DNA of 64,000 bases, from assembly GCA_021234155.1 (NCBI GenBank), contig JAJEKV010000030.1, positions 6,257,890-6,321,889 of the forward strand, given 5' to 3'. The position numbers and the translations under genes were made by a program. Shown piece after piece: positions 35,775 to 62,856 of this stretch (the first letter of the stretch is position 1; each line of letters begins with the position of its first letter). This stretch comes from Isoetes taiwanensis. Its lineage: Eukaryota > Streptophyta > Lycopodiopsida > Isoetales > Isoetaceae. Below the pieces are notes generated by a model, which was not told where the DNA came from, searched no databases, and saw only the letters and a program-made list of their open reading frames with translations.

Positions 35775-35796
35775 CATTAGAGAAAATATGGGGTCT
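35775..35796 (+). repeat. Left terminal inverted repeat of element 1
   Basis: 22 bp beginning CATTAGAGAAAATATGGGG. It matches the reverse complement of 43113-43134 exactly. The first 8 bp are shared with element 2. Confidence 0.9.
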
Positions 35797-36108
35797 CTTG
35801 GTGTCCCCTAAGAAATATTATAAGTTATTTTTTCTATTTTCCTAATTATATTGAGAGCATTTATCCTTCATAAATATAGAATCCAAGTGTATCTTAGAGC
35901 CCACGAGACCTATCCCATTATGCCGTCATTTGGAGAGAGAGGAGGAAATCTCGATTAGGGTTCCTCGAATCCGTTCGTGAGATCTCGAGGCGTGTCTAGA
36001 GATAAATACGAGATCTCCCTATTCAAGCGAGGTGTGCGGTGGTTTTCAAGGCAGCCGGATGCGATTTGAGCTTCGAGATCAAGGTTTAGGGTTCATGTGG
36101 GCGTGTGA

Positions 36109-36290
36109 GTTCAAATTTGAATTTCCCTCATTGCATTTGCTCTGAGAAATTTTTGAATCACAGTTCAAATTTGAAATTCCCTCATTGCATTTGCAGGAAA
36201 AATTTGAATTCTGGTTCAATATTGATTTTCCCTTACTCTAAAGTGCTCGGAAATTTTGAATTGTAGTTCAAATTTGAATTTCCCACACCA
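36109..36290 (+). repeat. Subterminal repeats of element 1, about 53-bp unit, 4 copies
   Basis: The motif GTTCAAATTTGAATTTCCC recurs at 36109, 36163, 36213 (diverged) and 36266, each followed by CTCATTGCATTTGC or a variant. The core CAAATTTG is palindromic. The position 330-510 bp from the terminus, upstream of the transposase gene, suits transposase-binding subterminal repeats or a promoter element (inference). Confidence 0.7.
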
Positions 36291-36319
36291 AAACATTTGA
36301 ATTCGTTATAAAATCAACA

Positions 36320-38870
36320 ATGGAGTTTAAGGATGGTTTTACGCTACTGCGATCATTGCCATGGTTCAAATGAGAATTACCTTGCCTTCATCGAATTTGC
36401 AAAATCCATCGACCAAAAAAAGAACATAATGCTTTTGAGATTGAGTGGAGCCAAGCATCGTATATATCTCACGGGCGAAGAGGGGAAATTTACCCACGAA
36501 ATCCATTCCGCGAGGTAAATGTCCAAATTTCAATTGTGTGTCAAGCCTTGTGAGGTTTGTTTGTGAGGGAAAGTCGGGGCTGCTAGGCTATTGTGAGAGC
36601 TTTGGCACAATCTGATTTACAATTAATTTATCAAAATAACAATTTGTCACATTGCTTGCATTTGAGAGACACGGAGTTGTCTAAATTGAGAGATCAGTTA
36701 AAGCGGCAAAGAAAGGAAAAGGATAAGCGAGGTCAGCCAACTAACAAAAGGAATTCTCAATTGGAGGAAGATATTGTGATGTTTTCGACAATGTGTCAAG
36801 CAAATTGATTTTTGCAAGACTTTCGGCAATGGCGGATGCTAGAAAGAATATGAAAAGCGATTAATGGGTGTCTTCTTGAGGAAGAGATTGGAGAGATCAA
36901 AGAGGACTGTTCTTGGTGCTCGAGAGAGAATAAAAGAATTCAAGCCAATTGAAACACTTAATATTAAATGTGGGGCTGCTCGAAGGAGAATTTATGCTAT
37001 GAAGCAAGTGCTACTGATCAAGTAAGGGAAAGAAGGGGTGTGAGGAAGAATGTTGGCAGCATTGTAAGAAGTATTGCCACAAAAGAAGAAATACTTTCAA
37101 TGTTAAATTCACCGAATTTTGATTTGAAGAAATCTGTTATGGACTGCTTCTTCATGAGGTGAGTTCTAAAATGGATGCAAATAAAATTCAAAATGTATGT
37201 GATTCTTTGGAATTAGTGCAGTGACTTATAGATTGCTCTTCAAGCAATTCTCGGATGCATTGAACATGGTTGGGACAAATAAAGTTATGGTTCCAAGGCC
37301 ACACCATCTGAATCTTGTCGAGGGCAAGGAGAAACACTATGGTTGAAGAGATCCTTGGAGGAATGCACTCAATCAAGTGTGAAGCACCATTCACTATTTC
37401 GGGGGCCAAGATCTAAGAAAGGTATCCCCAATGACAACAAAATTATAAGTCTCCATGAGAGAAACAATTTGTGGTTTGACTTGGAGAGCATTCTGAAATT
37501 TATGGTAGTTTTTCTATAATATACATGAAGATAGCATTCAAAGCGACCCATTTGGAGGTTTGTTTGAAGCTTGATGAAATGGAACTCGACCACAAAGTCA
37601 AGTATGAAAGGGTGTCTTTGGCGAGTCATGAATCGGGCATTTGCTGCAGATTATGAACAACAAAAATGTTAAAGAGGAAGGCTAGAGACTCCAGTGGTTT
37701 TCAATCAATCGAGGAGCATACGTGGTGGTTGGGCCTTTTCAAGTTCATAAGGAGAACAATGAAGTGCTGAAATGGGTCTTTGGCGACGGGTATACCTATG
37801 CTTGTGGGCAGCTATAATAAAGGTAAGAAGGTTTGTGTTGAAGGTTTTGGTTCTTTTTGATTAATTTCCACGGCATCAGATCTGGCGAAAGCCATGTATA
37901 ATATTAGGTCTTACGGTGCAAAAACTTCCGAATGTGCTTGTATTCTTTGTGAGACTTTGAAAGAAACAAAAATGGCCCCTCAAAAGAGTACTCTCAAATG
38001 TAATCGAGTTCAGCTCTCGATAGACACCTAAAGGATAAAGATCGATCCCAATTTTGCCTATTCCCTTGGATAGAGTTCACATTTGTACACTTTTGCGCTC
38101 TTGTTAGAATAGTAGAAAAGATGATTTGGCTTTCGAGGAGTTGTTTGTCCGGAACATTAAGGATGAGAAGCAGCGGAAAGAAGCTATTGAAGCAGTGGAA
38201 ACGGTATTATCAAATGCGAGGATTGCATGGTGGATGTGTGAAGCTGGAAATGGATACTAAGCAGTCCTCCAATGGAAGAAGCTTCGGTTCCAACCAAGGT
38301 GTCTATTGGAGGTGAGAGGCAAAAGCACTTTCTATGCAATGAAAGTGCCAAGGTAGGGTGTATGGGACTTGGGAAAAAAAAACTTGTAGATGCAGAGATG
38401 GATGAGAACCACTAATGGAAGAACCGAGAAAAAGGCATGCATGGAATGCCTTATCCAACTTAAATCTGTTGTTTAAGAAAGATTTACTCGGCCGAATTTG
38501 AGCGAATTTGGAATTTCGATTTCTTTTGTTAATGCATTTACAAAGGCATACATAGATGCATGGGGGAGAGCGAGGTTACACATTATGTGCATATAATTTT
38601 TGCACATGGGCCTTGGTTTTGCGAATAGGTATGGCAGCTTGGCCATATGGAACACACAAGGCATGGAAAAATCACATAAGCAAGCCAAGATGGTTTTAAT
38701 AGGAAGACTCAACGAGGGTAATCTAACTTCGTCAATCCAATCCATTGGTCCAAATGGGACAATGGTTCTATAGAGGAGTGCTAGCAAGACATGAAGAGAA
38801 TGTGGCAAGGCGTGCCTCGCCAATTTTGCATGATGCAATGGCGGTTGCTATGAAGAGGCGTCGACAATGA
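36320..38870 (+). pseudogene. Transposase-like gene of element 1, frameshifted
   Basis: Coding character runs along the plus strand with many frame changes. Around 36593-36808 lies a charged coiled-coil-like segment (LRDTELSKLRDQLKRQRKEK). At 37079-37114 is TKEEILSMLNSP. A cysteine pair in CACILCETLK follows near 37935. The C-terminal part 38483-38770 is one frame apart from a single TAA and contains FVNAFTKAYIDAWG and GMEKSHKQAK (38660-38689), then a basic tail (MAVAMKRRRQ). Two of these motifs recur in the same order in element 2, so I infer this is the family's transposase. Which residues are catalytic cannot be told from the broken frames. If the shifts are sequencing errors the protein could be near 800 residues. 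Confidence 0.6.
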
Positions 38871-39342
38871 GGGCTTGGTTTAATCGAATGGCAGGAACAA
38901 ACTAAATGAGTGGAGAAGCAAGAGACAAAAGAATTGGAAAAAGGTATATTGTTATCTGATTTCTTATGAATCTCAAACTTTATAGCAACTGCATTTGTAT
39001 GTCATTTATGGCATATCTTAATTTGTGCATATCGAAACCCGTTGTATAGTTGTATTGTTGTATCGATTTTGTGCATATTCTTGTTTCAAATTGTGCGGAT
39101 TTTTGTATCAACCATCTATCCCAAGAATTTTGTATCAAATTCTTGGGATCAAGCTCAAACTTAACAATTAATATCGGAGTTCTTAATATCAACAATGAAT
39201 AGCGAACTTAACAATCAATATCGGTTAAAACCCATCCCAAGGTCGAGTTCTCAAACCCTAAATAGGCAGTAGTGGTTGAATTATCCCACATGCTTAGGGT
39301 TAAATAAACTTAGTCATATATAAGGTTCTTTGTTTTCAATTT

Positions 39343-39428
39343 TGTATTTTCAATTGCAATACTTGTACAGAACATCAAACTCCCTTTTGTATTTTCAATT
39401 GCAATACTTGTATGAACATCAAACTCAA
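39343..39428 (+). repeat. 46-bp tandem duplication in element 1
   Basis: Two copies start at 39343 and 39388 with TGTATTTTCAATTGCAATAC. Both end in ...AACATCAAACTC. They lie downstream of the transposase gene in AT-rich DNA. Confidence 0.75.
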
Positions 39429-39790
39429 AACAATTCTAAGTTTCCATAATACTTGTTACCATATTTAAACATAATTGTGACCATTGCTTTGCATAATGAA
39501 CATGCTAGTTATGCTTTGATAAATTGTGACCATAAAATGCTAGTTCAAGATTCACCATAAACTTCATAAAGTTCACTTATAAAGTGTATGGTTCAATTTT
39601 GATAAAGTTCATGGTTCATAAAGTTTATGGTTCAATTTTGAACCATGAACTTCATACATATTTCCAAATGTGACCATTGACAAATAACAAATGTGACCAA
39701 TAGTACACCAAACTTGCACAACCCTAAACCAACAATAAAAAAAAAAATATATATCAGTTGACGAAGCCATTGATTGCATGGCACGCCTTT

Positions 39791-40213
39791 TTAGACAGTA
39801 CAGTGCATTTCGTATGCATGCAGATCATTGCACTCGATTGGCGGGTGCTCTTCATCTTCCTCCCAATTCCCGAACCATACCCAGCCGAGAATCGTAACCG
39901 AGCATGGCGAATCAAGATCACCTTGAGTTCCCATGGACGAAGTTCCGTGAATTCTACCCAGTAGGGCAAGAGGATCAAGTATGTCGCCGATTTTCGCGTG
40001 TGTGGAGGTGGGCGCCCTAGTTCGAAGGGAGCTGTAGTTTCGATAAGGTTCAGCGATGGCTAGACCGTCCTCATTCGGACCATGAGCCTTACGGAGATGG
40101 TTATTCAAAGCTGGTGGCAATGACTGCGTATGGAGCTCGAGGATGCAGCCCGACGGGGCGTGCCTAGGATACCCCCGTGTTTTTTCGATGTTGTGCTTTT
40201 GTTTTTCGACCAT
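39791..40213 (-). CDS. Element 1 minus-strand ORF, 140 codons, unrecognised
   Basis: This is the longest unbroken frame in element 1. The product is hydrophilic at the N-terminus (MVEKQKHNIEKTRGYPRH), contains LALLGRIHG and ends in an acidic, tryptophan-containing segment (WVWFGNWEEDEEHPP). There is no match to a family I know. It is convergent with the transposase gene, so it may be a second transposon protein or captured cargo. GC content is higher than in the neighbouring AT-rich spacer, which supports real coding. Confidence 0.45.
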   Translation of the reverse strand: MVEKQKHNIEKTRGYPRHAPSGCILELHTQSLPPALNNHLRKAHGPNEDGLAIAEPYRNYSSLRTRAPTSTHAKIGDILDPLALLGRIHGTSSMGTQGDLDSPCSVTILGWVWFGNWEEDEEHPPIECNDLHAYEMHCTV

Positions 40214-41400
40214 GTATATGAATCTCCATAACTCATCTCCATAACTTATGATGCTACCTCTTTTTTGTGATGGAACATTTTTATGTACAGGCCTTTTGTA
40301 AATTCGTCCATGAGGCGGTTGTTTTTGGGAGTATATAATATAAAATCGGTCATGTATTTCTTGTGTATTTCCTTCGATTTATGAGTTTATTCTTCAATGT
40401 CTTAAATATATTCACCATTGTGTGCTTATGTTCAAGTATTCTCGGTTTTACGAAAACTCTCAAAGTTTTTTGGGAACATGTAATCTAATGTCTATTTGCA
40501 TGCATCTTTGTGTGTACATTCTTCTTATCGCTTTACGAATATATCCTTCAATGCATTTTAAAAGCGTGATGTGAATACTATTGTCTTAATTTGTCAATGT
40601 TCATTGTCAATTAAATGTTTAAGTGTAAAATTTGGATACCATTGTCTCTTGAACTTTAACTTGTCATTGAACTTCAATGCATTTTAAGTGTGATGTGAAT
40701 ACTATTGTCTCTTGAACTTTAGTGTAAACTGAATACCATTGTCTATTGAACTTCTAAGCGTCATTGAACTTCTAAAAGTTCCAACTTGTTGACTAAATAA
40801 CCATCCGTTTAAGATTAAAGTCGAGCAAACATGGTTATTGAGCAAGCCACGAATATGAAAGCCCTTCCAAACCCAAGTTACATATAAGGCGGTAATATAT
40901 CTAGCAAATAATCAATCTTCTAAGACATGTCTATGATTTCATCGTGTTGTGGACAAAGAATAACAAGCACTTGAGATTGCGGCGAGTTCACATTAACCAA
41001 AAACAACGCCAATTCAGTGTCATATCAAATCGAGTCTTGCAAAACAGCAAAGTCTTTCATGAACTATTAGTCTTACATGGATTCAACAAGTATTAGTTCA
41101 CAGGAATGGTAGTGTCCATCTAAGTAGATATTGTTAAGTAGCAACAAAATTTAGATAAAGGCTGCGGGGAATTGAACGCAAAACCATTAACCACTTGACT
41201 TTGCAGTGCTAGTTCACATAAACAACAAAAGGCTTACATGAACTAATCAGCAAATGTTATAGCGGATGTATTTTTTGGATTCAACAAGTATTAGTTCACG
41301 GGGAATGGTAAAGTCCAGCAAGAAACATATTCTTAAATAGCAACCAAATTTAGACATAGTCTAGTGAATTGAACACGCAAAACCAACTGCCTTTCTTATG
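40214..41400. repeat. AT-rich filler of element 1 with internal duplications
   Basis: Near 40560-40760 the phrase ATACTATTGTCTCTTGAACT recurs three times with variation. At about 41076 and 41274 a roughly 120-bp segment is repeated directly (spacing 198 bp), beginning GGATTCAACAAGTATTAGTT. Each copy contains a GAATTGAAC motif resembling a reverse-strand Pol III B box, so these may be SINE fragments. No gene was seen. Confidence 0.5.
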
Positions 41401-41405
41401 TTTTT

Positions 41406-41852
41406 CTATCCATTAAAGCAACAAGTATTTGACGACAATGTAGATGGAGATTTACATTCCTTGCATTTTCTGTAACACTCCCTTCTATAACCAATCTTTC
41501 TATCATTCAAAAGGAAATAGAAGTCACCATTCATTGCACATGTATTCAAGAACTCCCGACATTCATGTAAAGTCCATTCTTCCTCAACATGCGGCACCTT
41601 CTCCGAATTTTGTCATCAAAACCAATGACTAAATCCATAAGGGTGAGTTCGTCCATGATCTTCTATCGATCTCCAAGCCCGGTGGCATTTCTCCCATACA
41701 CGCTTCCTTCTCTCAATAAAAAATTGATGTATAGCATCGGCTACACAACTTGTACTGTTTAACACCATAGAAATCGAAATGTATTCAATACAATGAGAAT
41801 CTAGTAAAAGCGGATATATGCAAATGTAAAACCCGATGCTAAAACTTGCCAA
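41406..41852 (-). pseudogene. Element 1 minus-strand coding segment, cysteine-rich
   Basis: Two overlapping-phase minus-strand frames look like one protein broken by a shift near 41610. The first holds AIHQFFIERRKRVWEKCH and HPYGFSHWF. The second holds EEEWTLHECREFLNTCAM and ends with RRECYRKCKECKS, a cysteine cluster that could bind zinc. It lies downstream of the segment 42060-42690 on the same strand and may be its next exon or a separate gene. The function is not recognised. Confidence 0.4.
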
Positions 41853-42059
41853 TCCTCACCTAAATATAAATGTGTCATTTGCAGGAGTGCACCTTGTGAT
41901 TTGCTGCCCGGTTTCATGATCCCTTTCCTTCCACCGGCGAGAAAATATACTCTCGGACTATTAGAGGATACACCTCGGATTGTATAAGTCGTGGTGCAAT
42001 CCTAATTGAAGTTTGATTGAAATAAATAAGAGAAAACATGAATTGGAAGAAACACTTTA

Positions 42060-42690
42060 AATGAGCATCTCACTCCTCCTCTTTCCCTAAGATTCTTAAA
42101 TACTTCTACGCCCAAATGATCTCGGTATCTTTGTCAACAATTTGAGTCCACCAAACTCGGTACCCATAAGTTTGGATCCGGTAGATCAATCTCTACCAAA
42201 CTTTCCTATCCCTTTACGATATCTTGTAATGATATGCATGAAACCATATACCTCTTTCTTTCAAGCTCCTCATGGTGAATCCTTGAACAACGGATGACCA
42301 ATTCTCGCAATGGTACACTTCAAGTACACTAGTTATGCTCTTTGGCTGAAACAACATCGGTAAAAACCGAGGAGCAAAAGCGAGTTGGGTTCAAGAGAAG
42401 GAAAGGAATGCTTCATTGAAATAGACTCCTTAGCCATGTCATGTGAGTCGTATGCATGCTCCACAACCGGATCCATTACAACCTTACCTCCGGGTCCAAA
42501 ACAAATTCTTTTACTTTCGTCCCTTCCAATGGGTGAGCGGTCTAACTGTTTAGCCCTTTTGACACCATGGTAGCCACACAACAGGCCTCATTGTCACCCA
42601 GGAACCAATTCTGAGATGGAGCTTCTCCCATTCGCCTTCTTCATTCTTGTTATTGCATAAGAAAACGGTCACTGCTCCTGATCTTGGCAT
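42060..42690 (-). pseudogene. Element 1 minus-strand gene start with splice-acceptor-like context
   Basis: The ATG at 42690 (MPRSGAVTVFLCNNKNEEGE) directly follows TTTCAG, so it could begin an exon after a 5'-UTR intron. The frame continues, with shifts near 42570 and 42370, through KRICFGPGGKVVMDPVVE, VYHCENWSSVVQGFTMRS and RVWWTQIVDKDTEI to a stop near 42080, roughly 200 residues in all. Basic and aromatic composition suggests a folded protein, but no family is recognised. It is transcribed inwards from the right end of element 1, opposite to the transposase. Confidence 0.45.
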
Positions 42691-43112
42691 CTGAAACGAG
42701 AAAAGAAACCCTGAATCAAAACCATGATCACAAAGAAATCAAATGCCAAAACTGGATTAGAATGTTACCCTGGCGTGCTTGATCGAGTTGAGTTTAGGCT
42801 AAACCTCGTGAAGGCGACTTGAGAACCCTAAACCGCCAGGTCGATCTGAAACTACTAATTGGGAGCTGTGTTTTTTTTCATGCATTAACTATTGGATGCT
42901 CGATGCAATACAATGTAGTTATTTCACACCTCACGTAAACAAGATTCCTATATATCTAACAATATCTTTAGGGGATTTCATGCACTATTTTCTAAATATT
43001 TGGGGCATCCCCTTGCCATGTAGACATGCCATTTGAACAAAGAGCAAGCCCCTTATTGGTGGATTGCAAAATCTGATGTGGAATTTCGAGCATTTTTTAA
43101 AGGGATATTCTA

Positions 43113-43134
43113 AGACCCCATATTTTCTCTAATG
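43113..43134 (-). repeat. Right terminal inverted repeat of element 1
   Basis: Exact inverse of 35775-35796, ending ...TATTTTCTCTAATG. Copia pol sequence follows immediately. Confidence 0.9.
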
Positions 43135-44166: not shown

Positions 44167-44197
44167 CATTAGAGTTTTTGAGGTCAAATAAGGGCCC
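44167..44197 (+). repeat. Left terminal inverted repeat of element 2
   Basis: About 30 bp, CATTAGAGTTTTTGAGGTCA followed by AATAAGGGCC. It matches the inverse of the right end except for two extra T in the T-run. Confidence 0.9.
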
Positions 44198-44571
44198 TTA
44201 CTCGATGCCACGTCAAAAAGCTCGCGGCCAATGGGGATCAGAGCTTATACGTAACTTTTTACCGAGACTTGGTTTAGCCTTTCTAGGTGTCAATCAGCTG
44301 CGTAACCCGGTAATATCCGTTGCCCTCTAGCCGGTGTCGTTACACGTGGCAATTATAACCGTTAGCTCCGCCCTCAATTCCCTTTCGGGTGTTTTCCACA
44401 ACGAGTTTTGCCAAGATCGATCACGCCAAGGGAGCTTCGGTTCACTTTCGAACCGCCGACCTGCGCTAAAGGGAGTTTCGACCACAGAAAAACTTCGATC
44501 AAGGTAAAATCGCGTAGCTTTTCCTAGTATTTCGATTCCGCTCCACATTCTAATTTGAATTACGTGACTAG

Positions 44572-44882
44572 ATGGCTATAAGCTCTATCACGATCGGAAA
44601 TGAGTTTGAAAGCTTCGTGGTGTCGGCTAAGGGAGCTTTGTTACACTCCAACCCGCAATGCGAGGTGAATGGCGAAGTCAAAAGATGCGGGGAGAAATGA
44701 TGTTTACGCACATTGGAAGGCTTTGGTGGTCGGATTTCGGGCAAAGAGATATTTGTACAAGTAAGGCATGTATACACTCCAACGGATATGGCAAAAGAAA
44801 AAATAAGCAAGCGATTTTAACTTTCCCACGGTTAGAAGCAAATTGTGAGTATGTAATTCTATGCAATCCATATTCAAATTAG
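44572..44882 (+). pseudogene. Element 2 module A1: small coding unit, one frameshift
   Basis: The ATG at 44572 opens ISSITIGNEFESFVVSAKG..., continuing to a stop at 44700. The next frame continues from about 44690 as MMFTHIGRLWW ... and ends LEANCEYVILCNPYSN before a stop at 44882. Together they make about 100 residues. Good codon-level character on both sides of a single shift suggests one protein. No family is recognised. It is the first gene after the left end. Confidence 0.4.
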
Positions 44883-44925
44883 TTCGCCATTACTTATCTA
44901 GTTCATTCCTATTCTCTCGAGGTTT

Positions 44926-45651
44926 GTGTATGTCGATGTGGAGAACACCGTCTCTTCACACTCGATAAGCAAAGGTGTTTTCCATTGCTTTCACCAAGAT
45001 ATGGGCTGCTTGTTGTTGAAGGTAGCACAAGATCATTTCGAGAAAGGGGTATATGGTTCTCGAGGTATGAATACTCTCCACGAAGATCAAGCTAACCGAG
45101 CTTCCATTGCCCACTGTCCGGATTTATACCTGCAAGAGACCTCTGGATGCCACTTCTATCTTATTAGCACGGAGTAAGTTGTCGCAGAAATGTTCACGGC
45201 ATTGAAGGAGAAGGGAGGAGTCTGCGGGCATGTGAAGATAAATTTAAGAATTGATCTGTTCATTGCCATATTCAAGAGCGCCGACAATGTAAAGAAGACC
45301 TTGAAGATGTTTATAGTTCAACAATCCATGGATAGTTTTTAGAAGGTTGGAGTGCTCGACTTCACGTTGGTGAGCTGAATGAATCTAACGAGGATAAGTC
45401 GAGACACGGTTCGGTTCAGATATTGCATTCGGAAGCAAACTTTGTATGTCACTTTTAAGTATAGGAGATGGCGAAATGTCCGTGAAGGAAGAAAGTACGT
45501 CTGGATTCATGTCGAACAAGATGATAATGATGGCACTCATTCCGTTGTCATAGACTTGAACATTCATAAGGATAATCGGTTGTTCAAAAGTCCGAGAGCC
45601 GGAGAGCGAAAGTGGTCTCTATTCGATGTTCGGGCGGCAATTGGAGTTTGA
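44926..45651 (+). pseudogene. Element 2 module A2: coding region of about 240 residues with two or three interruptions
   Basis: Three successive plus-strand frames follow one another without gaps: 44926-45177 (MYVDVENTVSSHSISKG...), 45190-45342 (MFTALKEKGGVCGHVKIN...) and 45379-45651 (...RYCIRKQTLYVTFKYRRW, HVEQDDNDGTHSVVIDLN). The last is rich in beta-type alternation and charged residues. The stop at 45651 is followed by spacer and then palindrome cluster 1. It may be a single gene broken by small indels. No domain is recognised. Confidence 0.4.
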
Positions 45652-45879
45652 GCAGACTTAAACTTCTTCCATTTCATGAGTGGAAAGCGCAGAGAAGAAT
45701 GTTATAAATTGGGGTCATGCATGCCACCCAAAGTCATATCAGATATGAATCTATCTAATATAAATATAAGTGATTGTTAAGCGGAGATCTATTGCATATT
45801 AATTGCAAACATATGCTTTCATTGGGATATAAGACTTAAAGTAGCCATGTTATGTACAACTTCGATTGTGGATGTGTTT

Positions 45880-46245
45880 TCACAACCGCACTTACGGTGC
45901 AAAATTGTGGCTCTCATAAAATATGGAAGGGCCATTTTCGCACCCAGAGCCCACGGTCTTGAAAAATGCATAGCATAAAAAAACAAAGGGTATATTCCGA
46001 CCGTAGCCACCGGTCATGGGTTATACATACAATAAGATATTGAAGGGTTGTTTCGCGACCGTAGCCACGGTGCGTGAAAATGTGCAATGAATAAAAAATG
46101 GAATGGGTATTTTTAGACCGTAGCCCGCGGCGAAATTGTGAATAGAATAAATTATCGGAAGTCTTGTTTTCGCGACATGAAGTATGCGGCGAATTTGTGC
46201 ATAGCATAAATTAAGGAAGTGTTATTTTCGCGATCGTTGCTACGT
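45880..46245. repeat. Palindrome cluster 1 of element 2
   Basis: Five to six copies of a degenerate GC-rich palindrome, best preserved at 46046-46074 (TTTCGCGACCGTAGCCACGG), spaced 60-80 bp. Between them is a cluster-specific spacer resembling TGTGCATAGCATAAATTAAG, varying between copies. It lies 3' of module A2. Confidence 0.75.
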
Positions 46246-46289
46246 TCTTAGTCTCTCTTGCAAATCAAGCCGCTACAAAGGCTCACATT

Positions 46290-47388
46290 CTAAGTGTCAT
46301 AAATCGGCCGCTCCACGAGAATGGCAAATAGCTGGTCGATAAGGCATGGGAGTCGTTTTAGCGATGGTATGACAAAATAGTGGAGAAAGAACGGGATTTT
46401 CGCCGAAGCATCTGAAAGAGTTCGAGGAGGAGCTAGAGGAGCCAAAGTGGATGCAACCACCGTGTATAATAATTTTTGCCCGAGCATAGACATTATGGCG
46501 AGTGTAATGAGTTTATCGATGCATATGGCGGCATCCTTCATAGCTTCATGGCCGGAGCTGGTCCCGACGTGAAAGCATGTCCTGCGGATCGGTTTTGCCT
46601 TCACTAAGCATCCAAGCTTTTCTTAAGATGTTTCAAACCCGATCAAGACCGAATTAGAAGGTTCTTGAAGAAACTACCGAACTGCGAGGCAAGAGGGGAA
46701 GGAAAGTTTTTTCGCCTAGATATCATGTTCAGCACATACATGATTTACACTAAGCCAAGCAAAGATGCCAGTTCTTCTTCAAATTGTGTCGCTCAAACGG
46801 CGCCCAGCCTCACCGATAGAGGAGCCGAGATAGATCCCGAGGAAGAGAAGATCGTCTTGGAAAATGAGGAGATCGAGATTGTGGAAGAGGAGGTCTCCGT
46901 GAAAAAGTTATCTACTTGGGGCTATCGAAGCATATCCCATCCAGGTGGGAAACCATACTTGTTCTTCTTGGGACATATCCGGGTGACGGGGTTGAGAGAA
47001 GACGAGATATTGGGCGAGATATATGCCCATGTTGTAGGCACAGGAGGACTTATAGACTTTGAGACCCGATGTCCCCGGACAAATGATGGAGGTCGTGACT
47101 TATGATGGATCCTCAATACCTCCGGAGGATGCATTTGAAATTGTCATGCAAAGAAGTGAAGCGGGGTATGAAGCAATGAAAGATGTCAAATTTGAAGTCG
47201 CTAGCTCTTCAAACAACATACGTATTCATAGAACGTGGAGTCAAGTCCTCTTTCAAAATAACAAACCCATTTGTTTGAAGCGGGACAAAAGAGAGGTATT
47301 TATCCGGTTTCATTTTCTATTTCTTCTTGAATCGATGTTTCTTTTATGCGGGGAGTTATTTATTGATGACTTACATGCAAGGCATTAG
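46290..47388 (+). pseudogene. Element 2 module B1: about 330-residue coding region, frameshifted
   Basis: The best part is the open frame 46665-47105. It holds KKLPNCEARGEGKFFRLD, then a strongly acidic segment (DPEEEKIVLENEEIEIVEEE), then YLFFLGHIRVTGLREDEI. It continues after a shift near 47090 as VVTYDGSSIPPEDAFEIV to 47388. Upstream, 46330-46660 has coding character in changing frames (ECNEFIDAYGGILHSFMA). The acidic central segment suggests a linker between two folded parts. No family is recognised. Confidence 0.45.
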
Positions 47389-47833: not shown

Positions 47834-47999
47834 TATAATGTCTTTTTCTATAAATTGTCTTTTCTATAATGTATCAATTGTTTTCATATATGACGGAATT
47901 GCTTTTATATGGATGTTCATTTATGATATTCATTAATTGTTAGAATTCAATGTGAGCAATAAATCCTTGTTAGATGTATATGTTAGGTATTCTTTAATG

Positions 48000-48365: not shown

Positions 48366-48377
48366 CCTAGGGGTTTA

Positions 48378-51886: not shown

Positions 51887-52164
51887 ATTCCCCACACGGG
51901 ATACAATTCCTTGGGATACCGTGACCTATGGCTACATAGCACCAAAGACACATATCATTACATATCACGGGTGAAGATACTCCCTTTGATTTTGGTATAA
52001 AGATTTTCATAGAAATTAAGTATATAAGCAAGTGATTTCAGTGTAATTAAGTAACATCCTTATATTATCATGTATTATCTTGGCAATCTTACACTTTTAG
52101 TGTAATTGAATGATTTCTTCTACCATTTTTCCTTGTATTTTTCATGTGAATGTTTTATTTGTGG

Positions 52165-52300
52165 TCATATATCGGCACCGTGTACGATGCGAAATAAATC
52201 GATCCTCGATTACAAATTATTGAAGGGCCTGGCCCCGCGACCGTGGCTACGGTCGCGGAAATCGATGGATCCGGTTTAGTTCACGGGCCCATCTTTGCAG
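52165..52300. repeat. Palindrome cluster 4 of element 2
   Basis: Two palindromes (CGCGACCGTGGCTACGGTCGCG at 52236-52257 in slightly shortened form, and a degenerate copy near 52169). The spacers CAAATTATTGAAGGGCCT and ATCCGGTTTAGTT are shared with cluster 5 but not with clusters 1-3. Confidence 0.75.
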
Positions 52301-52419
52301 CCACCACCAAAGGGTATAATACTTCAGCATTATTGGTATTATTCTTCAACTTTCTTGGTATTATACTGGCGATTATTAGTATTATACTTCAACATTATTG
52401 GATTCATTAGCTATAAATT

Positions 52420-52890
52420 CTTTTCACCTTGCTTTCACTTCTCACCTTTGTTCCATGTTTTTCACATTGCTTTCACTTCTCGGTGTTCTCACCTTGCTTT
52501 CACTTCTCACCTTGTGTTCCGTGTTCTTTGCTAATTGATCTTGATCCTTGCTTCTTGCTCCCTTCATTTTTCGTGCTACTTCATGCTACTTGGTCTTGTT
52601 CCTTGCTCTTGATCTTGCTACTTGATCTTGTTCCTTGCTTCCTTGCTCCATGATCTTCCTTGTTCCTTGCTTCTTGCTACTTGATCTTGATCCTTGTTCC
52701 TTGCTACTTCATCTTCCTGGTCCTTGCTACTTGGTTTTCCTTGTTCCTTGATCTTCTTGCTCCTTGATCTTCCATGTTCCTTGCTTCTTGCTACTTGATC
52801 TTGATACTTGTTCCTTGCTACTTGGTCTTCTTCCTTGCTTCTTGCTCCTTGTTCCTTGCTCTGCTCCTTGTTCCTTGCTCCGTCGGTGAT
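52420..52890. repeat. Pyrimidine-rich degenerate simple repeat
   Basis: Long run of CTTG(A/C)T and CCTTGCT-type units, for example TTGCTACTTGATCTTGATCC repeated many times. On the minus strand it yields a spurious-looking lysine/glutamate/arginine-rich ORF (52618-53067). It could encode a charged coiled coil if real, but the simple repeat explains it better. Confidence 0.7.
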
Positions 52891-52908
52891 CCTTGCTTGC
52901 TTGTGCAA

Positions 52909-53480
52909 ATGATTGGACCCAATCCTCCCTGGGTTACTCCGAAGGGCGCAAGCATGCTGGGGCATTACTGTGCGGGCCTGGCCCGATGAGCTATTTGACC
53001 ATTTCTTGGAGTGGAGGTTGCACCACAGTCCCACCAAGGAGCTTGCAATGGAGTTGATCAACTTCATTCTGGAACGATTCGATTGTGGTCATGAACCACT
53101 GATGGAAATTAATCCATCTGAATGTTATAGGAGACTTGCAATGAGGGGAATTCTTGAACCCCCTCCTTATCTGGACGAGATGCTTCTGGCCAGATTCGGG
53201 CCTCTTCTTCGTCTTTGGTTATTTAGCAGCATCTGCGGATCAATACATATCGAGAGTTCATTCATGAAATTTCTAAAGGGATGATGTATGGCCTTATTAG
53301 GGCGTGCTACAACGAAAGTACAACGGTTTTGTGGAGTTGGGTCCGCTCTTCTTAGTGAGTATCATCTGTGGGGGAATTACTTTTTCTAATGACTAGGTAC
53401 CCATATGGTGGGAAGAATCAGGTGGGATACTGGCGTGAGCTCGGTTTCCTAACCCGGATCGTGGGTTACCCCTCGCATGG
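52909..53480 (+). pseudogene. Element 2 module E: coding region of about 130-190 residues
   Basis: The probable start is the ATG at 52909 (IGPNPPWVTPKGASMLGHYC). After a shift near 52985 a clean frame runs PDELFDHFLEWRLHHSP, ELAMELINFILERFDCG, PSECYRRLAMRGILEPPPYL to 53284, followed by further coding character in another frame (GPLLLSEYHLWGNYFF, near 53340-53385). Helical, amphipathic composition. No family is recognised. It is convergent with the transposase C-terminal part, with palindrome cluster 5 between them. Confidence 0.45.
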
Positions 53481-53694
53481 GAAGGCAAGGGGAAGGGAAC
53501 AGGGGGAAGGTTACTAGGGACATACGTAGCCGTGGTCTCTAGTAACCTTTGCTATCTATCATAAATATTTCATCTGATACCGTGTTAATATGTTCTATAA
53601 ATATTCTCTAATATGTTAATATGTTCTCTAATATGTTAATATTCTCTAGTTAACGACCCATATTTCTTATTCTTGTTAAATGGCCTCAAATTTA

Positions 53695-54090
53695 TGCACC
53701 GTAAGCCATGGCGTAAATTGACCTGAGTACAAATTATTGAAGGCCTATTTCGCAACCGTAGCCACAGTCTTGAAATCGACTGAGTTACAAATTATTGAAG
53801 GGCCTACTTCGCACCGTGGCTACGGTGCGAAATACGTGGATCCAGTTTAGTTACAGGCCCATATTTCGCACCGTCGCCACGATGCGAAATCGACTCAGTT
53901 ACAAATTATTGAAGGGCCTATTTCGCACCGTAGCCACGGTGCGAAATCGACTCAGTTACAAATTATTGAAGGGCCTATTTCGCACCGTGGCTACGGTGCG
54001 AAATACGTGGATCCAGTTTAGTTACAGGCCCATATTTCGCACCGTGGCCACGATGTGCAATACATGCATCCAATTTACTTACAATACAGC
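53695..54090. repeat. Palindrome cluster 5 of element 2
   Basis: Six palindromes, several perfect or with one central mismatch (GTGGCCAC, GTAGCCAC or GTGGCTAC at the centre). Two spacer types alternate: CGACTCAGTTACAAATTATT... and ACGTGGATCCAGTTTAGTTA.... The spacing is about 60 bp. This is the best preserved cluster, with copies at about 53814-53834, 53867-53889, 53928-53947 and 53986-54006. Confidence 0.9.
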
Positions 54091-54197
54091 ATTTCGCACA
54101 CTGAGCACTATCGAACTGATAAATAAACCAACTCTTTTACAGTAGAGACGTTATCAAGAGCTCTCAATACAGACATAACCTTTGCCTTGCATACATC

Positions 54198-54775
54198 TCA
54201 TTGATCTCCACTCCCTTGATCGCTCAACATTTGCGGACTTATACCAAGCCGCCCTCTTTTTCCTTCTGGGTTTTGTCTAAACAACTTAGCAAAGTGTTGA
54301 TTCACTTTCGGTTCCGTGATTTCTTCACCCACTTGCACCACGATCATACGCAAAACCATTGACACATCTGCGCAGAAATTCCTAACCGAACCTGCGTGTT
54401 GAGTGAAATGGAAGAATGCATTCTTTGCTTGCTTATGAGACTTCTCCATTCCCCATTGTATTCCAAATTCCCGGGCTTCCATATTCCACGACAAACTACG
54501 CCATATGCGAGCATATATGGACATAGTGAGTCAAATTGGCCTCACCCCATGCCGTCGGGGAAAGACTTAGTGAAGTTTGTGACGCCCTCACGGAATTTGG
54601 CAACATCATTTTCCTGCACCTACCTTTTACGCATTTCCTTTACGGTCTGGAGAAATCCACGCCATGCCTTGATTTTTTCTTGGTGATCGCCATGATCATT
54701 TCGATCATCCTCAGCTGCAATAAGATCCTTGTAAGCTTCCCAAACACCAGATAAGTTCTCTTTCGCGGGAGGCAT
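54198..54775 (-). pseudogene. Element 2 transposase-like gene, C-terminal part
   Basis: Minus-strand frames from 54775 (MPPAKENLSGVWEAYKDLIA) pass through FREGVTNFTKSFPDGMG, then, in frame 54524-54198, SLSWNMEAREFGIQ and GMEKSHKQAK (54423-54452). They end in a basic tail (RQNPEGKRGRLGISPQ). The order FTK-x-x-x-D-x-x-G, then GMEKSHKQAK, is the same as in element 1, with similar spacing. This is the strongest evidence that both elements carry one transposase family. Its N-terminal part lies across the array at 60.7-62.3 kb. Confidence 0.6.
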
Positions 54776-54852
54776 GTTAATGTCTAAATAATGTCTAAAT
54801 AATATTTTGGCATTATTAGGTGAGTTGAAAAGTCCTAGGAGATATGTTTATC

Positions 54853-57520
54853 TGGTCCTAGAATGCCCAAAAAGTCATACGTGGCAGGCGGCACTAGGCT
54901 GGTGACGTTGGATTCAACGATGCCCCTAGAGTTGCCCCTAGGATCCGAAAACTTCCTCAAGGTGGGATTGAATCCTGCCTACAAAGTGTGCATGTATGGC
55001 CAAAGTTTTGCCCAACGGATGTGTGGTGAGTTGGTATAGGCCTAGTAATGCCAAAAATAAGTGTTCATTTGGTCATGGGTTCAAACCTTGCCAATGTCAC
55101 TTATATTTGGAAGTTGGTTACTAGGGGTACTGATGATGATGATCCCCGTGGTAGAACTTAAAAGCCTATACATGTCCTCCACTTTTGGCTTTCGTTGGCG
55201 ATGGGACAAAAACTAGCTAGTTTGTAAAAAACTAGTCTAGACCATAAAAAGTTGGTTTGGATTAGCGTGGCTGGTTTCTTTGGTTACTTGTCTAAAAGCA
55301 TGCCCAAAAGTCATCACGTTGGCGGCGGCACTAGGCTGGTAACGTTGGATTCAACGGCGCCCCTAGAGTTGCCCTAGGATCCAGAAAACTTCCTCAAAGG
55401 TGGGATTGAATCCACGCCTACAAAGTGTGCATGTATGGCCAAAGTTTTGCCCAGCGGATGTGTGGTGAGTTGGTATAGGCCTAGTAATGCAAAAATAAGT
55501 GTTCATTTGGTCATGGGTTCAAACCTTGTCAATGTCACTTATATTTGGAAGTTGGTTACTAGGGGTATCTGATGATGATCCCCGGCGTGGTAGAACTTAA
55601 AAGCCTATACATGTCCTCCACTTTGGCTTTCGTTGGCGATGGGACAAAAACTAGCTAGTTTGTAAAAAAAACTAGTCTAGACCAGTAAAAGTTGGTTTGA
55701 TTCAGCGTGGGCTGGTTTCTTGGTTCTTGTCTAAAGCCCCTCACGGTCCTAGGATGCCCAAAAAGTCATGCGATGGGCGGCGGCACTAAGGTGGTGACGT
55801 TGGATTCAACGATGCCCCTAGAGTTGCCCCTAGGATCCAGAAAACTTCCTCAAGGTGGGATTGAATCTGCCTACAAAGTGTGCATGTATGGTCAAAATTT
55901 TGCCCCAACGGATGTGTGGTGAGTTGGTATAGGCCTAGTAATGCCAAAAATAAGTGTTCATTTGGTCATGGGTTCAAACCTTGCCAATGTCACTTATATT
56001 TGGAAGTTAGTTACTAGGGGTATCGATGATTACGTGGTAGAACTTAAAAGCCTATACATGTCCTCCACTTTGGCGTTGGCGATGGGACAAAAACTAGCTA
56101 GTTTGTAAAAAAATTAGTCTAGACCGGTAGGAAGTTGGTTTCTGAAAAAGCCCATACATGTCTAAAGCCCCACGGTCTAGGATGCCCAAAAAGTCATCAT
56201 TCGGGCACTTGACGTTGAATCTGGTCCTAGGACCAAAAAGTCACTGGCAGGCGGCACTAGTTTGTGATGTTGGATTCAACGATGCCCTAGAGTTGCCCTA
56301 GGATCGAAAACTTCCTCAAGGTGGGATTGTACAAAAATGTATGGCCAAAGTTTTGCGGATGTGGTGGTGAGTTGGTATAGGCCTAGTAATGTCAAAAATA
56401 AGTGTTCATTTGGTCATGGGTTCAAACCTTGCCAATGTCACTTATATTTGGAAGTTGGTTACTAGGGGGTATCACGATGATGATCCCAAGCGTGGTAGAA
56501 CTTAAAAGCCTATACATGTCCTCATTTTCGCGATGGGACAAAAACTAGCTAGTTTGTAAAAAACTAGTCTAGACCCGTAAAAGTTGGTTTCTGGTGGGCT
56601 GGTTTTCTTGGTTCTTGTCTAAAAACCCTACGGTCCTAGGATGCCCAAAAGTCATGCACGTGGCGGTGGCACTAAGGCTGGTGGCGTTGGATTCAGCGAT
56701 GCCCCTAGAGTTGCCCCTAGGATCGAAAACTTCCTCAAGGTGGGATTGAATCACGCCTACAAAAGTGTGCATGTATGGCCAAAGTTTTGCCCAGCGGATG
56801 TGTGGTGAGTTGGTATAGGCCTAGTAATGTCAAAAATAAGTGTTCATTTGGTCATGGGTTCAAACCTTGCCAATGTCACTTATATTTGGAAGTTGGTTAC
56901 TAGGGGTATCACGATGATGATCGAAGCGTGGTAGAACTTAAAAGCCTATACATGTCCTCCACTTTGGCTGCTCGTTGGCGATGGGACAAAAAACTAGCTA
57001 GTTTGTAAAAAAACCTTTCTAGACCGGTAAAAGTTGGTTCCTGATTATTGTGGTTTCGGGTTTCTCGGTTCTAAAGCCCTCTTGGTCCTAGGATGCCCAA
57101 AAAGTCATACGTGGGGTGGCACTAGGGTCGTTGGATTCAAACGATGCCCCTAGAGTTGCCCCTGGGATCAAAACTTCCTCAAGGTGGGATTGAATCACCA
57201 TTACAAAGTGTGCATGTATGGCCAAAGTTTTGCCCAGCGGATGTGTGGTGAGTTGGTATAGGCCTAGTAATGCCAAAATAAGTGTTCATTTGGTCATGGG
57301 TTCAAACCTTGTCAATGTCACTTATATTTGGAAGTTGGTTACTAGGGGTATCGATGATGATCCCGGCGTGGTAGAACTTAAAAGCCTATACATGTCCTCC
57401 ACCTTTGCTTTTCGTTTTGGGACAAAAACTAGCTAGTTTGTAAAAACTAGTCTAGACCCGGTAAAAGTTGGTTTCTGATTCATGTGGCTGGTTTCTTGGG
57501 TTACCGGTTTCTTGGATACC
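54853..57520 (+). repeat. Forward tandem array, about 445-bp unit, 6 copies
   Basis: B-box-like GGTTCAAACC recurs near 55077, 55516, 55966, 56417, 56848 and 57298. Each copy carries, in order, CCTAGAGTTGCCCCTAGGAT, GTGGGATTGAATC, AAAGTGTGCATGTATGGCC, GTGAGTTGGTATAGGCC (A-box-like), GGTCATGGGTTCAAACC (B-box-like), GTGGTAGAACTTAAAAGCC and a CTAGCTAG...CTAGTCTAG palindromic tail. Copies are almost identical except in a few GC-rich hotspots. Confidence 0.9.
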
Positions 57521-57529
57521 ATTATTTTT

Positions 57530-60408
57530 AGAGCTTGTTTAAGGTCCATACTAGACTAATCTTGTGCATGGATCAGCTAGTTTATCCCACTACCTGCGGC
57601 GTGCCCAAAGTGGAGGACAACGTATAGGCTTTTAAGTTCTACCACGCAGTTTTAGGGGGATCATTATCATTATAACCCCAAAGAACCAACTCCCAAAGAT
57701 AAACATACATTGGCAAGGTTTGAACCCATGACCAAATGAACATTTATTTTAGCATTACTAGGCCTATACCAACTCACCACACATCCGTTGGGCAAAACTT
57801 TTGCCTTACATGCACACTTTGTAGGCAGGATTTAATCCCGCCTTAGGAAGTTGGGCACCATAGCGGTCGATCTATGGCCCATTATTTTTTTAGAGCTTGT
57901 TTAAGGTCCAGACTAGACTAATCTTGTACAGACTAGCTAGTTTATCCCACTACCTTGCGGCAGCCAAAGTGGAGGACACGTATAGGCTTTTAAGTTCTAC
58001 CACGTCGGGGATCATTATCATTATAACCCGGTAACCAACTCCCAAAGATTAACATACATTGGCAAGGTTTGAACCCATGACCAAATGAACATTTATTTTG
58101 GCATTACTAGGCCTATACCAACTCACCACACATCCGTTTGGGCAAAACTTTTGCCTTACATACACACTTTGTAGGCGGGATTTAATCCGCCTTAGGAAGT
58201 TGGCACCATAGCCTGTAAGGCGGTCGGTCGATCCATGGCCCATTATTTTTTAGAGCTTGTTTAAGGTCCATACTAGACTAATCTTGTGCAGACTAGCTAG
58301 TTTATCCCACTACCTTTGCGGCGACCAAAGTGGAGGACACATTATAGGCTTTTAAGTTTACCACGTTGGGGATCATTATCATGATAACCCCAGTAACCAA
58401 CTCCCAAAGATAAACATACATTGGCAAGGTTTGAACCCATGACCAAATGAACATTTATTTTGGCATTACTAGGCCTATACCAATCACCACACATCCAGTT
58501 GGGCAAAACTTTTGCCTTACATGCACACTTTGTGGGCAGAGGATTTAATCGCCTTAGGAAGTTGGCACCATAGCGTAAGACGGTCGATCCATGGCCCATT
58601 ATTTTTTTAGTGCTTGTTTAAGGTCCATACTAGACTAATCTTGTCTGGGACTAGCTAGTTTATCCCACTACCTGGCGGACCTAAAGTGGAGGACGCGTAT
58701 AGGCTTTTAAGTTCTACTGCGTCGGGGATCATTATCATTATAACCCGGGTAACCAACTCCCAAAGATAAACATACATTGGCAAGGTTTGAACCCATGACC
58801 AAATGAACATTTATTTTGGCATTACTAGGCCTATACCAACTCACCACACATCCGTTGGGCAAAACTTTTGCCTTACATGCACACTTTGTGGGGTGGATTT
58901 AATCCGCCTTTAGGAAGTTGGGCACCAACAAATGATCGATCCATGGCCCATTATTTTTTTTTTAGAGCTTGTTTAAGGTCCATACTAGACTAATCTTGTG
59001 CGGACTAGCTAGTTTATCCCACTACCTTGGCGGCGACCAAAGTGGAGGATACATTATAGGCTTTTAAGTTCTACCACGGGGATCATCATCATTATAACCC
59101 CAGTAACCAACTCTCAAAGATAAACATACATTGGCAAGGTTTGAACCCATGACCAAATGAACATTTATTTTGGCATTACTAGGCCTATACCAACTCACCA
59201 TACATCCGTTGGGCAAAACTTTTGCCTTACATGCACACTTTGTGGCGGATTTAATCCAGCCTTAGGAAGTTGGGCACCATTTAATAAGGCGGTGGTCGAT
59301 CCATGGCCCATTATTTTTTAGAGCTTGTTTAAGGTCCATACTAGACTAATCTTGTCTGGACTAGCTAGTTTATCCCACTACCTTGCGGCAGACCAAAGTG
59401 GAGGACACATTATAGGCTTTTAAGTTCTACCACGCCGGGCATCATTATCATTATAACCCTAGTAACCAACTCCCAAAGATAAACATACATTGGCAAGGTT
59501 TGAACCCATGACCAAATGAACATTTATTTTGGCATTACTAGCCTATACCAACTCACCACACATCAGTTGGGCAAAACTTTTGCCTTTACATGCACACTTT
59601 GTGGCGGGGATTTAATCTCGCCTTAGGAAGTTGGGCACCATGGCCATTGTAAGGCGGCGATTGATCCATGGCCCATTATTTTTAGAGCTTGTTTAAGGTC
59701 CATACTAGACTAATCTTATGCCAGACTAGCTAGTTTATCCCACTACCTTCGCGGCTGACCAAAAGTGGAGGACATTATAGGCTTTTTAAGTTCTACCGCG
59801 TCGGGGATCGTTATCGTATAACCCCAGTAACCAACTCCCAAAGATAAACATACATTGGCAAGATTTGAACCCATGACCAAATGAACATTTATTTTGGCAT
59901 TACTAGGCCTATACCAACTCACCACACATCCGTTGGGCAAAACTTTTGCCTTACATGCACACTGGGCGGTGGATTTAATCCGCCTTAGGAAGTTGGGCAC
60001 CATAGCATTTGTCGTGATCGATCCATGGCCCATTATTTTTTTAGAGCTTGTTTAAGGTCCATACTAGACTAATCTTGTACGGACTAGCTAGTTTATCCCA
60101 CTACCTTACTGGCGCCCAAAAAGTGGAGGACACCGTATAGGCTTTTAAGTTCTACCACGGGGATCATTATCATTATAACCCCAGGTAACCAACTCCCCCA
60201 AAGATAAACATACATTGGCAAGGTTTGAACCCATGACCAAATGAACATTTATTTTGGCATTACTAGGCCTATACCAACTCACCACACATCAGTTGGGCAA
60301 AACTTTTGCCTTACATGCACCTTTGTAGTGGATTTAATCCCGCCTTAGGAAGTTGGGCACCATAGTATTTGTAAGACAACGGTCGATCCATGGCCCATTA
60401 TTTTTTTG
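57530..60408 (-). repeat. Reverse tandem array, about 357-bp unit, 8 copies
   Basis: The same repeat core in the opposite orientation, with B-box complements (GGTTTGAACC) near 57716, 58064, 58428, 58784, 59141, 59499, 59857 and 60222. Units are shorter because the 5' block of the forward unit is replaced by one containing ATGGGCCATGGATCGA. The tail ends TTAAACAAGCTCTAAAAA. The steady 348-365 bp period shows real tandem amplification. Confidence 0.9.
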
Positions 60409-60659
60409 TTAGGATAAACATATCTTGACATATCCTAGGACTTTTCAACTAATCTTGAAGTATTTTGTAGTGCCCACCATGAAGTCCCACATTAGATAGC
60501 ACCTTTTCAACTTCATGCATGGCGGCTTCCTAGAGCTTTGGGGTGATTTATTCCAAGCAAGCGGGATACTAATGTAAACCATCTTGTCTATGATTCTCAA
60601 GAAAGCATGAAGGGTGCATATGTGTACTCTTCTTAACTTGGAATTGAGAAACTGGCATC

Positions 60660-62300
60660 AAGGTTGTGTCCTTCTCTTCTCTATTTGGTGGCTCATCCCG
60701 GACGCGATCCTAATATACTCTTGTCCAATCCAATTTGAATCTCTTCTTGCATAGAGGCCGGTAGGGACAAGCATGAGTAGTCTTACCAGACACCATGCTT
60801 CATTACGTACATGCATTTTATTGTCTTCAAATCTGCAAAGAAGATGCCATTCAACCTCGTTACTCACCATATCCGAGGGCGCAAGTTTTTCTCCGATTAC
60901 GTGACAAAAGCAATCATTGTGGGAATGGGTGTTTGATCAAAACCCATTTTGTTATCTTTGTGATTTTCCTGCGTACTGAAATAAACCAACCCACCAAATG
61001 TGATCTTAATTTGGACGGGAAAACTTACCATCTAGATTTGACTCTTCATTCCACGTATTCAAAGCTCTGTTCATTAGACTTCGGTTGAAACCCTCTCGCA
61101 TTTTTCGCCTTTCACCAATTCCATTTCTTCCGACTTCAAAACAATTCTTAGTTTGCCGGTAGCACTCTTCTACCTTCATATCATAAAATCGAACCAAAGG
61201 CTGAAGCATTCTAGTTAAGTCTATCCGGCCAATTGTTATTTTCATTAAAAGCGAGAAAGTCTCACCAAAGCCGACTTCTTCTTACCTTTGGTATAGGATG
61301 CCAATGTATCCACGTTGACTTCTGGCGGTCGGTGATACATATCACCAAGAAGCTCTTGCACTTGTACGTTTCTCGATGACCTACAAGTCCTCACACTAGT
61401 CATCCTTGGTAGTAGAATAGTTTTGGTAATGCCTTGTTGTTTAAGGCCATCACGCAAGCATCCGAACAAAAGCAATATAAGCTTGCCTACTTATTCAGAC
61501 ATTGTCACCACAGTTCTTGCAGCGATTCGAGGTTTGTTGTTCCCCAACTCCTGCAGCAGTTGATGTACTACTGGCTTTCCTAAGTTGAATGCTACGGGGA
61601 AGCTTTAACATTCTCAATACATCATCTTTAGTAACTAATTTCTTTAATAAACCGCAATATTAGCGGGTTTTCTCTTATTACTAATACGCAAGATTTGGAT
61701 CAACAAGCTTTTTTTAATAGCCATGACCCTTTTTTTGAGCCTCCACCCCCGGGGGCTAATATATTTATGGGCTTGGGTTTTGCCCTCTCCCGATACCGGT
61801 GGAGTTCTTTTCAAGCGTTTGACCCGCTTGTGAAGGGAATCATTTTCTTCGCGCCAACCCTCTTCATTCCTTGTTGCGGTGCATTCATCTCGACCACCAA
61901 TTTTACGATTTGCTACCTCCAATTCAATGAGCTTGCGGCATTGTTGAGGCAGTAGTTACGCCTGTTGGAGCTGATTAACATCGATAAAACTTTGCAATTG
62001 AATCCATACAAGTGGTTATACATGGCACGCAAATGTGGATCAGTATTACCATTAACCAAATTATTACAGTAACCTAGTAACCCTTGCTTTGTCCCTTACA
62101 AGCAAATTCAATAAGAATGGGATGCAGTGGAAGTTTGGATGGGCTCGAGTGCAAGGATCACATGGATACAGTTGGCCTTTAGCCCAGAGGTCTATATTCA
62201 TGGCTCTTAAGCTCGCAATGCATCTTCATCTATTGGTTGCTTCAAGTGAACTTATTCGTAAGGCGAGGCATTCTTTTGGCACTTGCACTCTAAATTGACC
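60660..62300 (-). pseudogene. Element 2 transposase-like gene, N-terminal part, frameshifted
   Basis: Read from right to left: NHLYGFNCKVLSMLISSN near 62020-61960. Then a coiled-coil-like charged stretch (61920-61780: REENDSLHKRVKRLKRT). Then TKDDVLRMLKLP at 61632-61597, followed by GVGEQQTSNRCKNCGDNV, with a possible zinc-binding cysteine pair. Then 61475-61245 and 61245-61006 (VRFYDMKVEECYRQTKNC), and finally 60870-60660. The coiled coil followed by TKxxxLxML matches the order in element 1. The frame is broken at least five times. Confidence 0.5.
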
Positions 62301-62696
62301 CTTGAATTAGTTTGATCACAAAGCGAAGTATTAGAAGGAAGAACACTCAAAGGAATGCAATGGCGACTTCGGAAACCAAATACCTTTGCCATAGGCGTTG
62401 CAAAAAAGACCGGGGGCGGAGATTAAATTAGGAAGATTCTTGCCAACAAACGAGCGAAATTGAAAATTTTTGCTCTATTTCTTCGGCAAGAATCCTCCAT
62501 AATTCAATTCAAAACTTACCGGGCGCGATGGCAAGATCGTTGGCATTTCGATGGCCGCGATGGCAAGGTCGATAAGCGAGGGCAAGCTTCGATCGATGGC
62601 GCTGAAGCTTCGATGGCATAAACTTCGAAAGGTGGGAAAAACGAAAATCCTAGATATAATCATCAAATATTCGTGTCGTTAGGAAATAATGATTGC

Positions 62697-62778
62697 GGGG
62701 GTTAGGTTGGGGGGTTAGGTTGGAGGTTAGGTAGTTAGGTTGGGGGAGAGTGAAAGTTAGGTATGGAGGGGGGGAAGC
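62697..62778 (+). repeat. G-rich GGTTAG-like subterminal tract of element 2
   Basis: Repeated GGTTAGGTTGG and GGGTTAGG units with longer G-runs occur 80-160 bp inside the right end. The plus strand has many runs of three or more G and could form G-quadruplexes. It resembles degenerate telomere-type repeat. No equivalent is seen at the left end. Confidence 0.75.
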
Positions 62779-62823
62779 TAGGTTCGGGATCCTACGTGGC
62801 GGCCCCTTTAATATATTCTTAGG

Positions 62824-62856
62824 AGGCCCTTATTTGACCTCAAAAAAACTCTAATG
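62824..62856 (-). repeat. Right terminal inverted repeat of element 2
   Basis: Inverse of 44167-44197, ending AAAACTCTAATG. The rest of the copia LTR follows directly. Confidence 0.9.

Follow-up and report, generated by a model that had tools for sequence, protein, structure and literature searches.

Vertebrate antibody genes are cut by the enzyme RAG1, and both RAG1 and the Transib transposons insert with a 5-bp duplication of target. The accessible text of one survey derives RAG1 from Transib and places Transib in the CMCT assemblage together with EnSpm/CACTA, Mirage, Chapaev, Plavaka, ESTA and Lanisha, the last listed as similar to EnSpm; as summarised there, CMCT elements carry C(2)C and H(3-4)H motifs between the second D and the E of the transposase, mostly CA..TG termini and target-site duplications (TSDs) of 2-5 bp (PMC12730594). 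RAGL (RAG1L-RAG2L) transposons are described, in the available portion of a second source, with 5-bp TSDs and terminal inverted repeats (TIRs) resembling CACTWMCAAAC (PMC7204232), and the PHIS element Spy, in a third source available in part, with no TSD, AAATTT as target and a PIF/Harbinger-type transposase (PMC4482050). Here we describe two elements, element 1 and element 2, from a 64,000-nucleotide stretch of the Isoetes taiwanensis genome (G000:C1035:6257890-6321889, hereafter the window). We are confident that they represent two families of one TIR DNA transposon group, with a RAG1/Transib-type transposase acting at 5'-CATTAG ends and insertion without duplication.

Termini and insertion sites

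Both elements are hosted by a single copia retrotransposon, element 1 in its pol region and element 2 in its 3' long terminal repeat (LTR). The features that bear on termini and insertion, with the evidence for each, are as follows.

35775..43134, no strand: element 1, 7,360 bp, in copia pol (TIR alignment; copies with the same end bases; empty site at L011)
35775-35796 and 43113-43134: TIRs of element 1, 22 bp, identical (TIR alignment)
44167..62856, no strand: element 2, 18,690 bp, in the copia 3' LTR, with TIRs of ~30 bp at both ends (TIR alignment; LTR comparison; genome matches with the same start base)
31544..31754, plus strand: copia 5' LTR, the empty site of element 2, with the junction near 31671-31675 (element 2 flanks compared with the window by blastn, and alignment)

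TIR alignment shows both elements bounded by CATTAGAG...CTCTAATG, with the two families differing inward of the common CATTAGAG; the matching ends of element 2 differ in length by two bases. The CATTAGAG octamer by itself is not significant in the window (five found against 2.32 expected, a count reached in 9 of 100 shuffles), but it forms the outer end of the TIRs and marks repeat boundaries genome-wide, and the termini therefore stand as described. In comparisons within the 1.66-Gb assembly of 1,110 contigs, 40 of 111 candidate matches to element 1 were scored; 35 of the 39 non-self matches start exactly at the C of CATTAGAG, three start 1-2 bases earlier and one 15 bases later. Of 340 candidates for element 2, 40 were scored, and each of the 39 non-self matches starts at that C or no more than 7 bases before it.

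Target duplication was assessed in 15 copies of element 1, namely the window copy and the 14 of 20 fetched loci (given L numbers here) that have both ends; L029, L032, L036, L037, L039 and L040 were excluded since their right end was unmatched within the fetched stretch. The right end is CTAATG in all 15 copies, and the left end is CATTAG in all except L035, which has CATTGG. Twelve of the 14 fetched copies measure 7.3-7.8 kb and two are shorter (3,626 and 4,358 bp). Separately, four element 1 left ends lie on one strand at ~4.74-kb steps in G000:C334:196300-210631, two of them within L040, where a truncated element 1 has seemingly turned into a tandem array.

No flanking repeat of at least 3 bp was found in any of the 15 copies (~0.3 expected). 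The flanks are identical over 1 bp in three copies (3.75 expected) and over 2 bp in three (CT, CT and GT; 0.94 expected), so that a 2-bp TSD is unsupported.

Three empty sites are available for element 1. A copia copy in L011 has 60 identical bases across ATTAC/TCAG (the slash marks the junction), with nothing duplicated and nothing lost; over the full alignment of 325 columns it is 88% identical to the window copia, and a 24-base gap and the other differences lie away from the junction. In copies L025 and L021 the adjoining tandem units serve as empty sites and align ungapped through the insertion point, with substitutions, at 85% and 87% identity. Other junction-spanning rows were left out as the copies' own loci, reaching no more than 12 bases beyond the junction. 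Joining the flanks of element 1 restores the copia reading frame save for one in-frame TAG, which was not produced by the insertion because the empty copia copy in L011 carries it too.

The 5' LTR of the same copia provides the empty site of element 2 and reads ATCATCGGTTGGGAAG against ATCATCCAAAT/TGGGAAG in the inserted LTR. The 5' LTR is two bases shorter here and carries substitutions, which leaves the exact count of target bases uncertain at this site; no direct repeat of 2-9 bp flanks element 2 in the inserted LTR. A second copy of element 2, with its left end in L011 and its right end in L042 (12,997 bp by end coordinates), has the LTR position and outer flank of the window copy and is thus the same insertion, duplicated with the locus. 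This duplicate, comprising the copia, element 2 and the outer flank, lies on contig C937 at ~89-91% identity (window 60452-64000 against L042; 43135-45764 against L011) and lacks both element 1 and the element 2 tandem array.

Insertion of this group leaves no target duplication, with zero loss at empty sites. A sequence-only reading of this DNA had proposed the same termini and coordinates without TSDs, and the TIR alignments, the 15 copies and the empty sites bear it out. Its observation that the copia frame resumes across element 1 with no duplicated base agrees with the exact empty site, and its claim that the element 2 flanks show no duplication agrees with the absence of a 2-9 bp direct repeat from the inserted LTR. 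The comparison it recommended, of further copies with empty sites, returned the 14 further copies of element 1 and the empty sites given above.

Two convergent genes and a predicted RAG1/Transib-type core

Elements 1 and 2 carry the same two genes in convergent orientation, encoding a transposase of ~880 amino acids (aa) and a second protein of ~300 aa.

36320..38957, plus strand: transposase gene of element 1, approximate limits (fragments matching the L034 protein; open frame in L034)
41876..42764, minus strand: second gene of element 1, facing the transposase gene, with approximate limits (open frame of 296 aa in L024, carried over to the window; homologue in element 2)
54172..62297, minus strand: transposase gene of element 2, fragmented, with a tandem array interrupting it in the window copy (tblastn of the L034 protein; copy L042 without the array)
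44997..45077, plus strand: recognisable stretch of the second gene of element 2 (tblastn, 57% over 28 aa, expectation value (E) 3e-4); the gene itself is longer (254 aa aligned in L017)
56269..60407, no strand: tandem arrays inside element 2, with 438-bp units at 56269-57487 and 356-bp units at 57525-60407 (Tandem Repeats Finder)

The element 1 transposase is encoded by 885 uninterrupted codons in L034 and by two overlapping frames in L024; in the window copy the frame is broken, and fragments at 36445-38867 match residues 45-856 of the L034 protein. Its homologue in element 2 was recovered by tblastn in stretches of 26-40% identity, with a best combined E of 7.5e-42 in the L042/L043 copy. The second protein of element 1, taken from L024, matches 11 of the 12 element 2 left ends searched, most strongly that in L017, with 34% over 254 aa (E 5.8e-33). 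Common termini, transposase and second gene thus support the sequence-only proposal of one group with two families. The second protein itself has no Pfam match at E<=10 and only chance-level matches to PDB chains.

The broken frames of the window copy must be read with its altered triplets in mind. Relative to the majority at each alignment column of 13 full-length copies, element 1 in the window is altered at 138 of 198 CAG/CTG sites, compared with 6/315 ATA/TAT, 16/313 CTT/AAG, 29/416 CAA/TTG, 33/369 GAA/TTC, 51/322 TCA/TGA and 20/48 CCG/CGG; in other copies, within L021-L038, the CAG/CTG figure ranges from 21 (L024) to 140 (L027) of 198. Among the 138 altered sites, 54 change length, the commonest substitution is CAG>CGG (23), and 14 are of the deamination type. 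We infer a systematic basecalling error at CHG-methylated sites, so that many frame breaks at CAG/CTG sites in the window are probably assembly errors and broken frames are weak evidence of decay.

Searches with single sequences found little. The element 1 transposase alone matched nothing above the Pfam cut-off, a search of 5.8 billion proteins with its residues 480-860 left no candidate, of 1,938, at E<=0.01, and the whole L034 protein gave four weak BAG6 matches and no RAG1 in the PDB. In other single-sequence PDB searches the H(4)H-E stretch gave marginal matches to RAG1, once as the sole match (E 0.96) and once in 13 of 13 matches (best E 0.17). Searches of viral and genome contig sets with 7-8 residue patterns produced three pattern matches in each and none confirmed, giving no viral or prokaryotic source at that sensitivity.

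An alignment of both families as query retrieved 23 unannotated relatives (P0001-P0023; E 4.4e-84 to 2.5e-16), and a widened alignment retrieved the same 23. Conserved in the transposase and the relatives covering them are a D (LDE), a second D (HLA.DLKT), C(2)C, VHICT.HA, H(4)H and an E (QGMEKSH); QGMEKSH is invariant in all 18 rows of the C-terminal alignment, from which L034 was left out. Eleven Pfam families were listed for the relatives at E<=0.1, and among these the only transposase family is RAG1; each of the other ten was matched by a single member. As an observation apart, many relatives, listed as P0002, P0004-P0010 and P0011-P0020, stop or begin between THYM and QHIL, as if a common intron lay there; elements 1 and 2 lack it.

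In L024 the core residues are D63, D168, C189/C192, H403/H408 and E428, with spacings of 105 and 260 and 25 from H to E. The corresponding residues of RAG1 are D600, D708, C727/C730, H937/H942 and E962, with spacings of 108, 254 and 25. A predicted model of the core (predicted local distance difference test, pLDDT, 77) was searched with Foldseek, and all nine matches at E<=0.001 are RAG1, RAG1-like and Transib structures; VIA, which takes those matches up again, leaves room for families missing from them. The transposase core is thus predicted to be of the RAG1/Transib type, with an RNase-H fold and a D-D-E triad.

Two further observations concern the interior of element 2. Within window 55416-60320, stretches of ~90-138 nt from the tandem units recur in opposite orientation, one sequence having seemingly been amplified both ways. 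A palindrome like GCACCGTGGCCACGGTGC is present at nine sites in window 46056-54056, each of them within element 2, with no more than 3 mismatches (18 matches on both strands; 0.01 expected).

Alternative assignments and a possible mechanism

Several results weigh against assigning the transposase to the RAG1/Transib type. The intact L034 frame has V in place of the E of the catalytic triad, and the transposase resembles RAG1 weakly in sequence: 4 of the 23 relatives match Pfam RAG1 at E<=0.1, with a best value of 0.0038 that falls below the RAG1 cut-off. One PDB search returned RAG1, again over the H(4)H-E stretch, in 14 of 16 matches (best E 0.057) with a designed repeat protein on top (E 1.5e-4, in seven tiny pieces), and profiles A3 and A4 retrieved no RAG1 from the PDB. 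A first structure model was poor (pLDDT 34). To our knowledge no CACTA transposase structure has been solved, and the fold search therefore cannot separate Transib-like from CACTA-like proteins. As to insertion, element 2 supplies one independent event, not two, and movement of the elements was not observed.

The CMCT motif order and the CA..TG termini would also suit a CACTA/EnSpm, Chapaev or Transib family that has diverged and in which the TSD was lost or became variable. We consider this highly improbable, given that no copy keeps a TSD of at least 3 bp, that the junction is exact or free of gaps at each of the three empty sites, and that RAG1 is the sole transposase family among the Pfam matches listed. 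The sequence-only suggestion of a relative of Spy fares worse: such an origin, from Spy or another PHIS element, shares the missing TSD with Spy as characterised in the available text (PMC4482050), but the predicted fold matches RAG1/Transib and insertion is not at AAATTT, and we give it hardly any credence. Because the termini read ...TA/GAG...CTC/TA..., a Tc1/mariner-like TA duplication inside CATTAGAG/CTCTAATG might also be imagined; its probability is negligible, and it is ruled out by the L011 empty site, ATTAC/TCAG, and by the 5' LTR, both of which lack CATTAATG.

The most substantial competitor concerns the name of the group. Lanisha was proposed in Repbase Reports in 2020 as a cut-and-paste superfamily, its authors reportedly work on mosses, and a plant host would fit it; that our group is Lanisha, and hence already named, is a real though lesser possibility. 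The accessible CMCT summary lists Lanisha as EnSpm-like within that assemblage, which speaks for it, and gives CMCT lineages TSDs of 2-5 bp where the present group has none, a comparison made for Lanisha by name and reference only (PMC12730594). The sequence-only proposal of a new superfamily stands as possible and unproven, since CMCT motifs are present in the transposase and the present elements could prove identical with Lanisha. We regard as evenly balanced the proposition that elements 1 and 2 define an undescribed superfamily, probably of plants, with CATTAG termini, a recombinase of the RAG1/Transib type, a convergent gene pair like that of RAG-like transposons and zero-stagger strand transfer, the first of the RAG1/CACTA alliance without a TSD.

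The transposase would most likely pair both ends and cut at the outer C of CATTAG. Both 3' ends would most likely be joined to directly opposed target phosphates, a zero stagger that would leave no gap to fill; alternatively, a stagger may arise and be removed before sealing. Movement would be of the cut-and-paste kind, excision might proceed through a RAG/Transib-like nick and hairpin, and the second protein may act as a partner in transposition. Were this true, a core predicted to be the same as that of RAG1, RAGL and Transib would act without duplication, making the geometry that sets target stagger directly testable. The transposons related to V(D)J recombination would gain a branch that is apparently hosted by plants and has a convergent two-gene layout of its own. 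As a high-copy class of elements, the group also shows what annotation tools reliant on TSDs would miss.

Comparison with known systems

Within the literature reached, which excluded most subscription journals and Repbase Reports, we found no described plant group with a RAG1-like transposase or without a TSD, and no described group combining a RAG1-like transposase with TSD-less insertion. CACTA/EnSpm elements have CACTA termini and a 3-bp TSD, whereas the present termini are CATTAG, with no TSD and no Pfam CACTA transposase family among the matches. Spy, so far as its description is accessible, likewise lacks a TSD, but AAATTT is absent from the junction at all 15 element 1 insertion sites.

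The predicted core resembles those of Transib, RAGL and RAG1 in its D-D-C(2)C-H(4)H-E order and near-identical spacing, and the termini likewise begin with CA. In contrast to the 5-bp TSD and CACTWMCAAAC-like TIRs given for RAGL in the available text, the present elements have no TSD and begin with CATTAGAG; RAGL transposons also contain a convergent gene pair, but the second protein described here matches nothing, and nothing found here links it to RAG2 (PMC7204232). Set against the CMCT traits as summarised in the accessible text, the group has the D-D-E triad with C(2)C and H(4)H between the second D and the E, and the CA..TG termini (CATTAG..CTAATG), but not the TSD of 2-5 bp (PMC12730594). 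The group is therefore allied to RAG1/Transib/CACTA and is not an ordinary member of CMCT.
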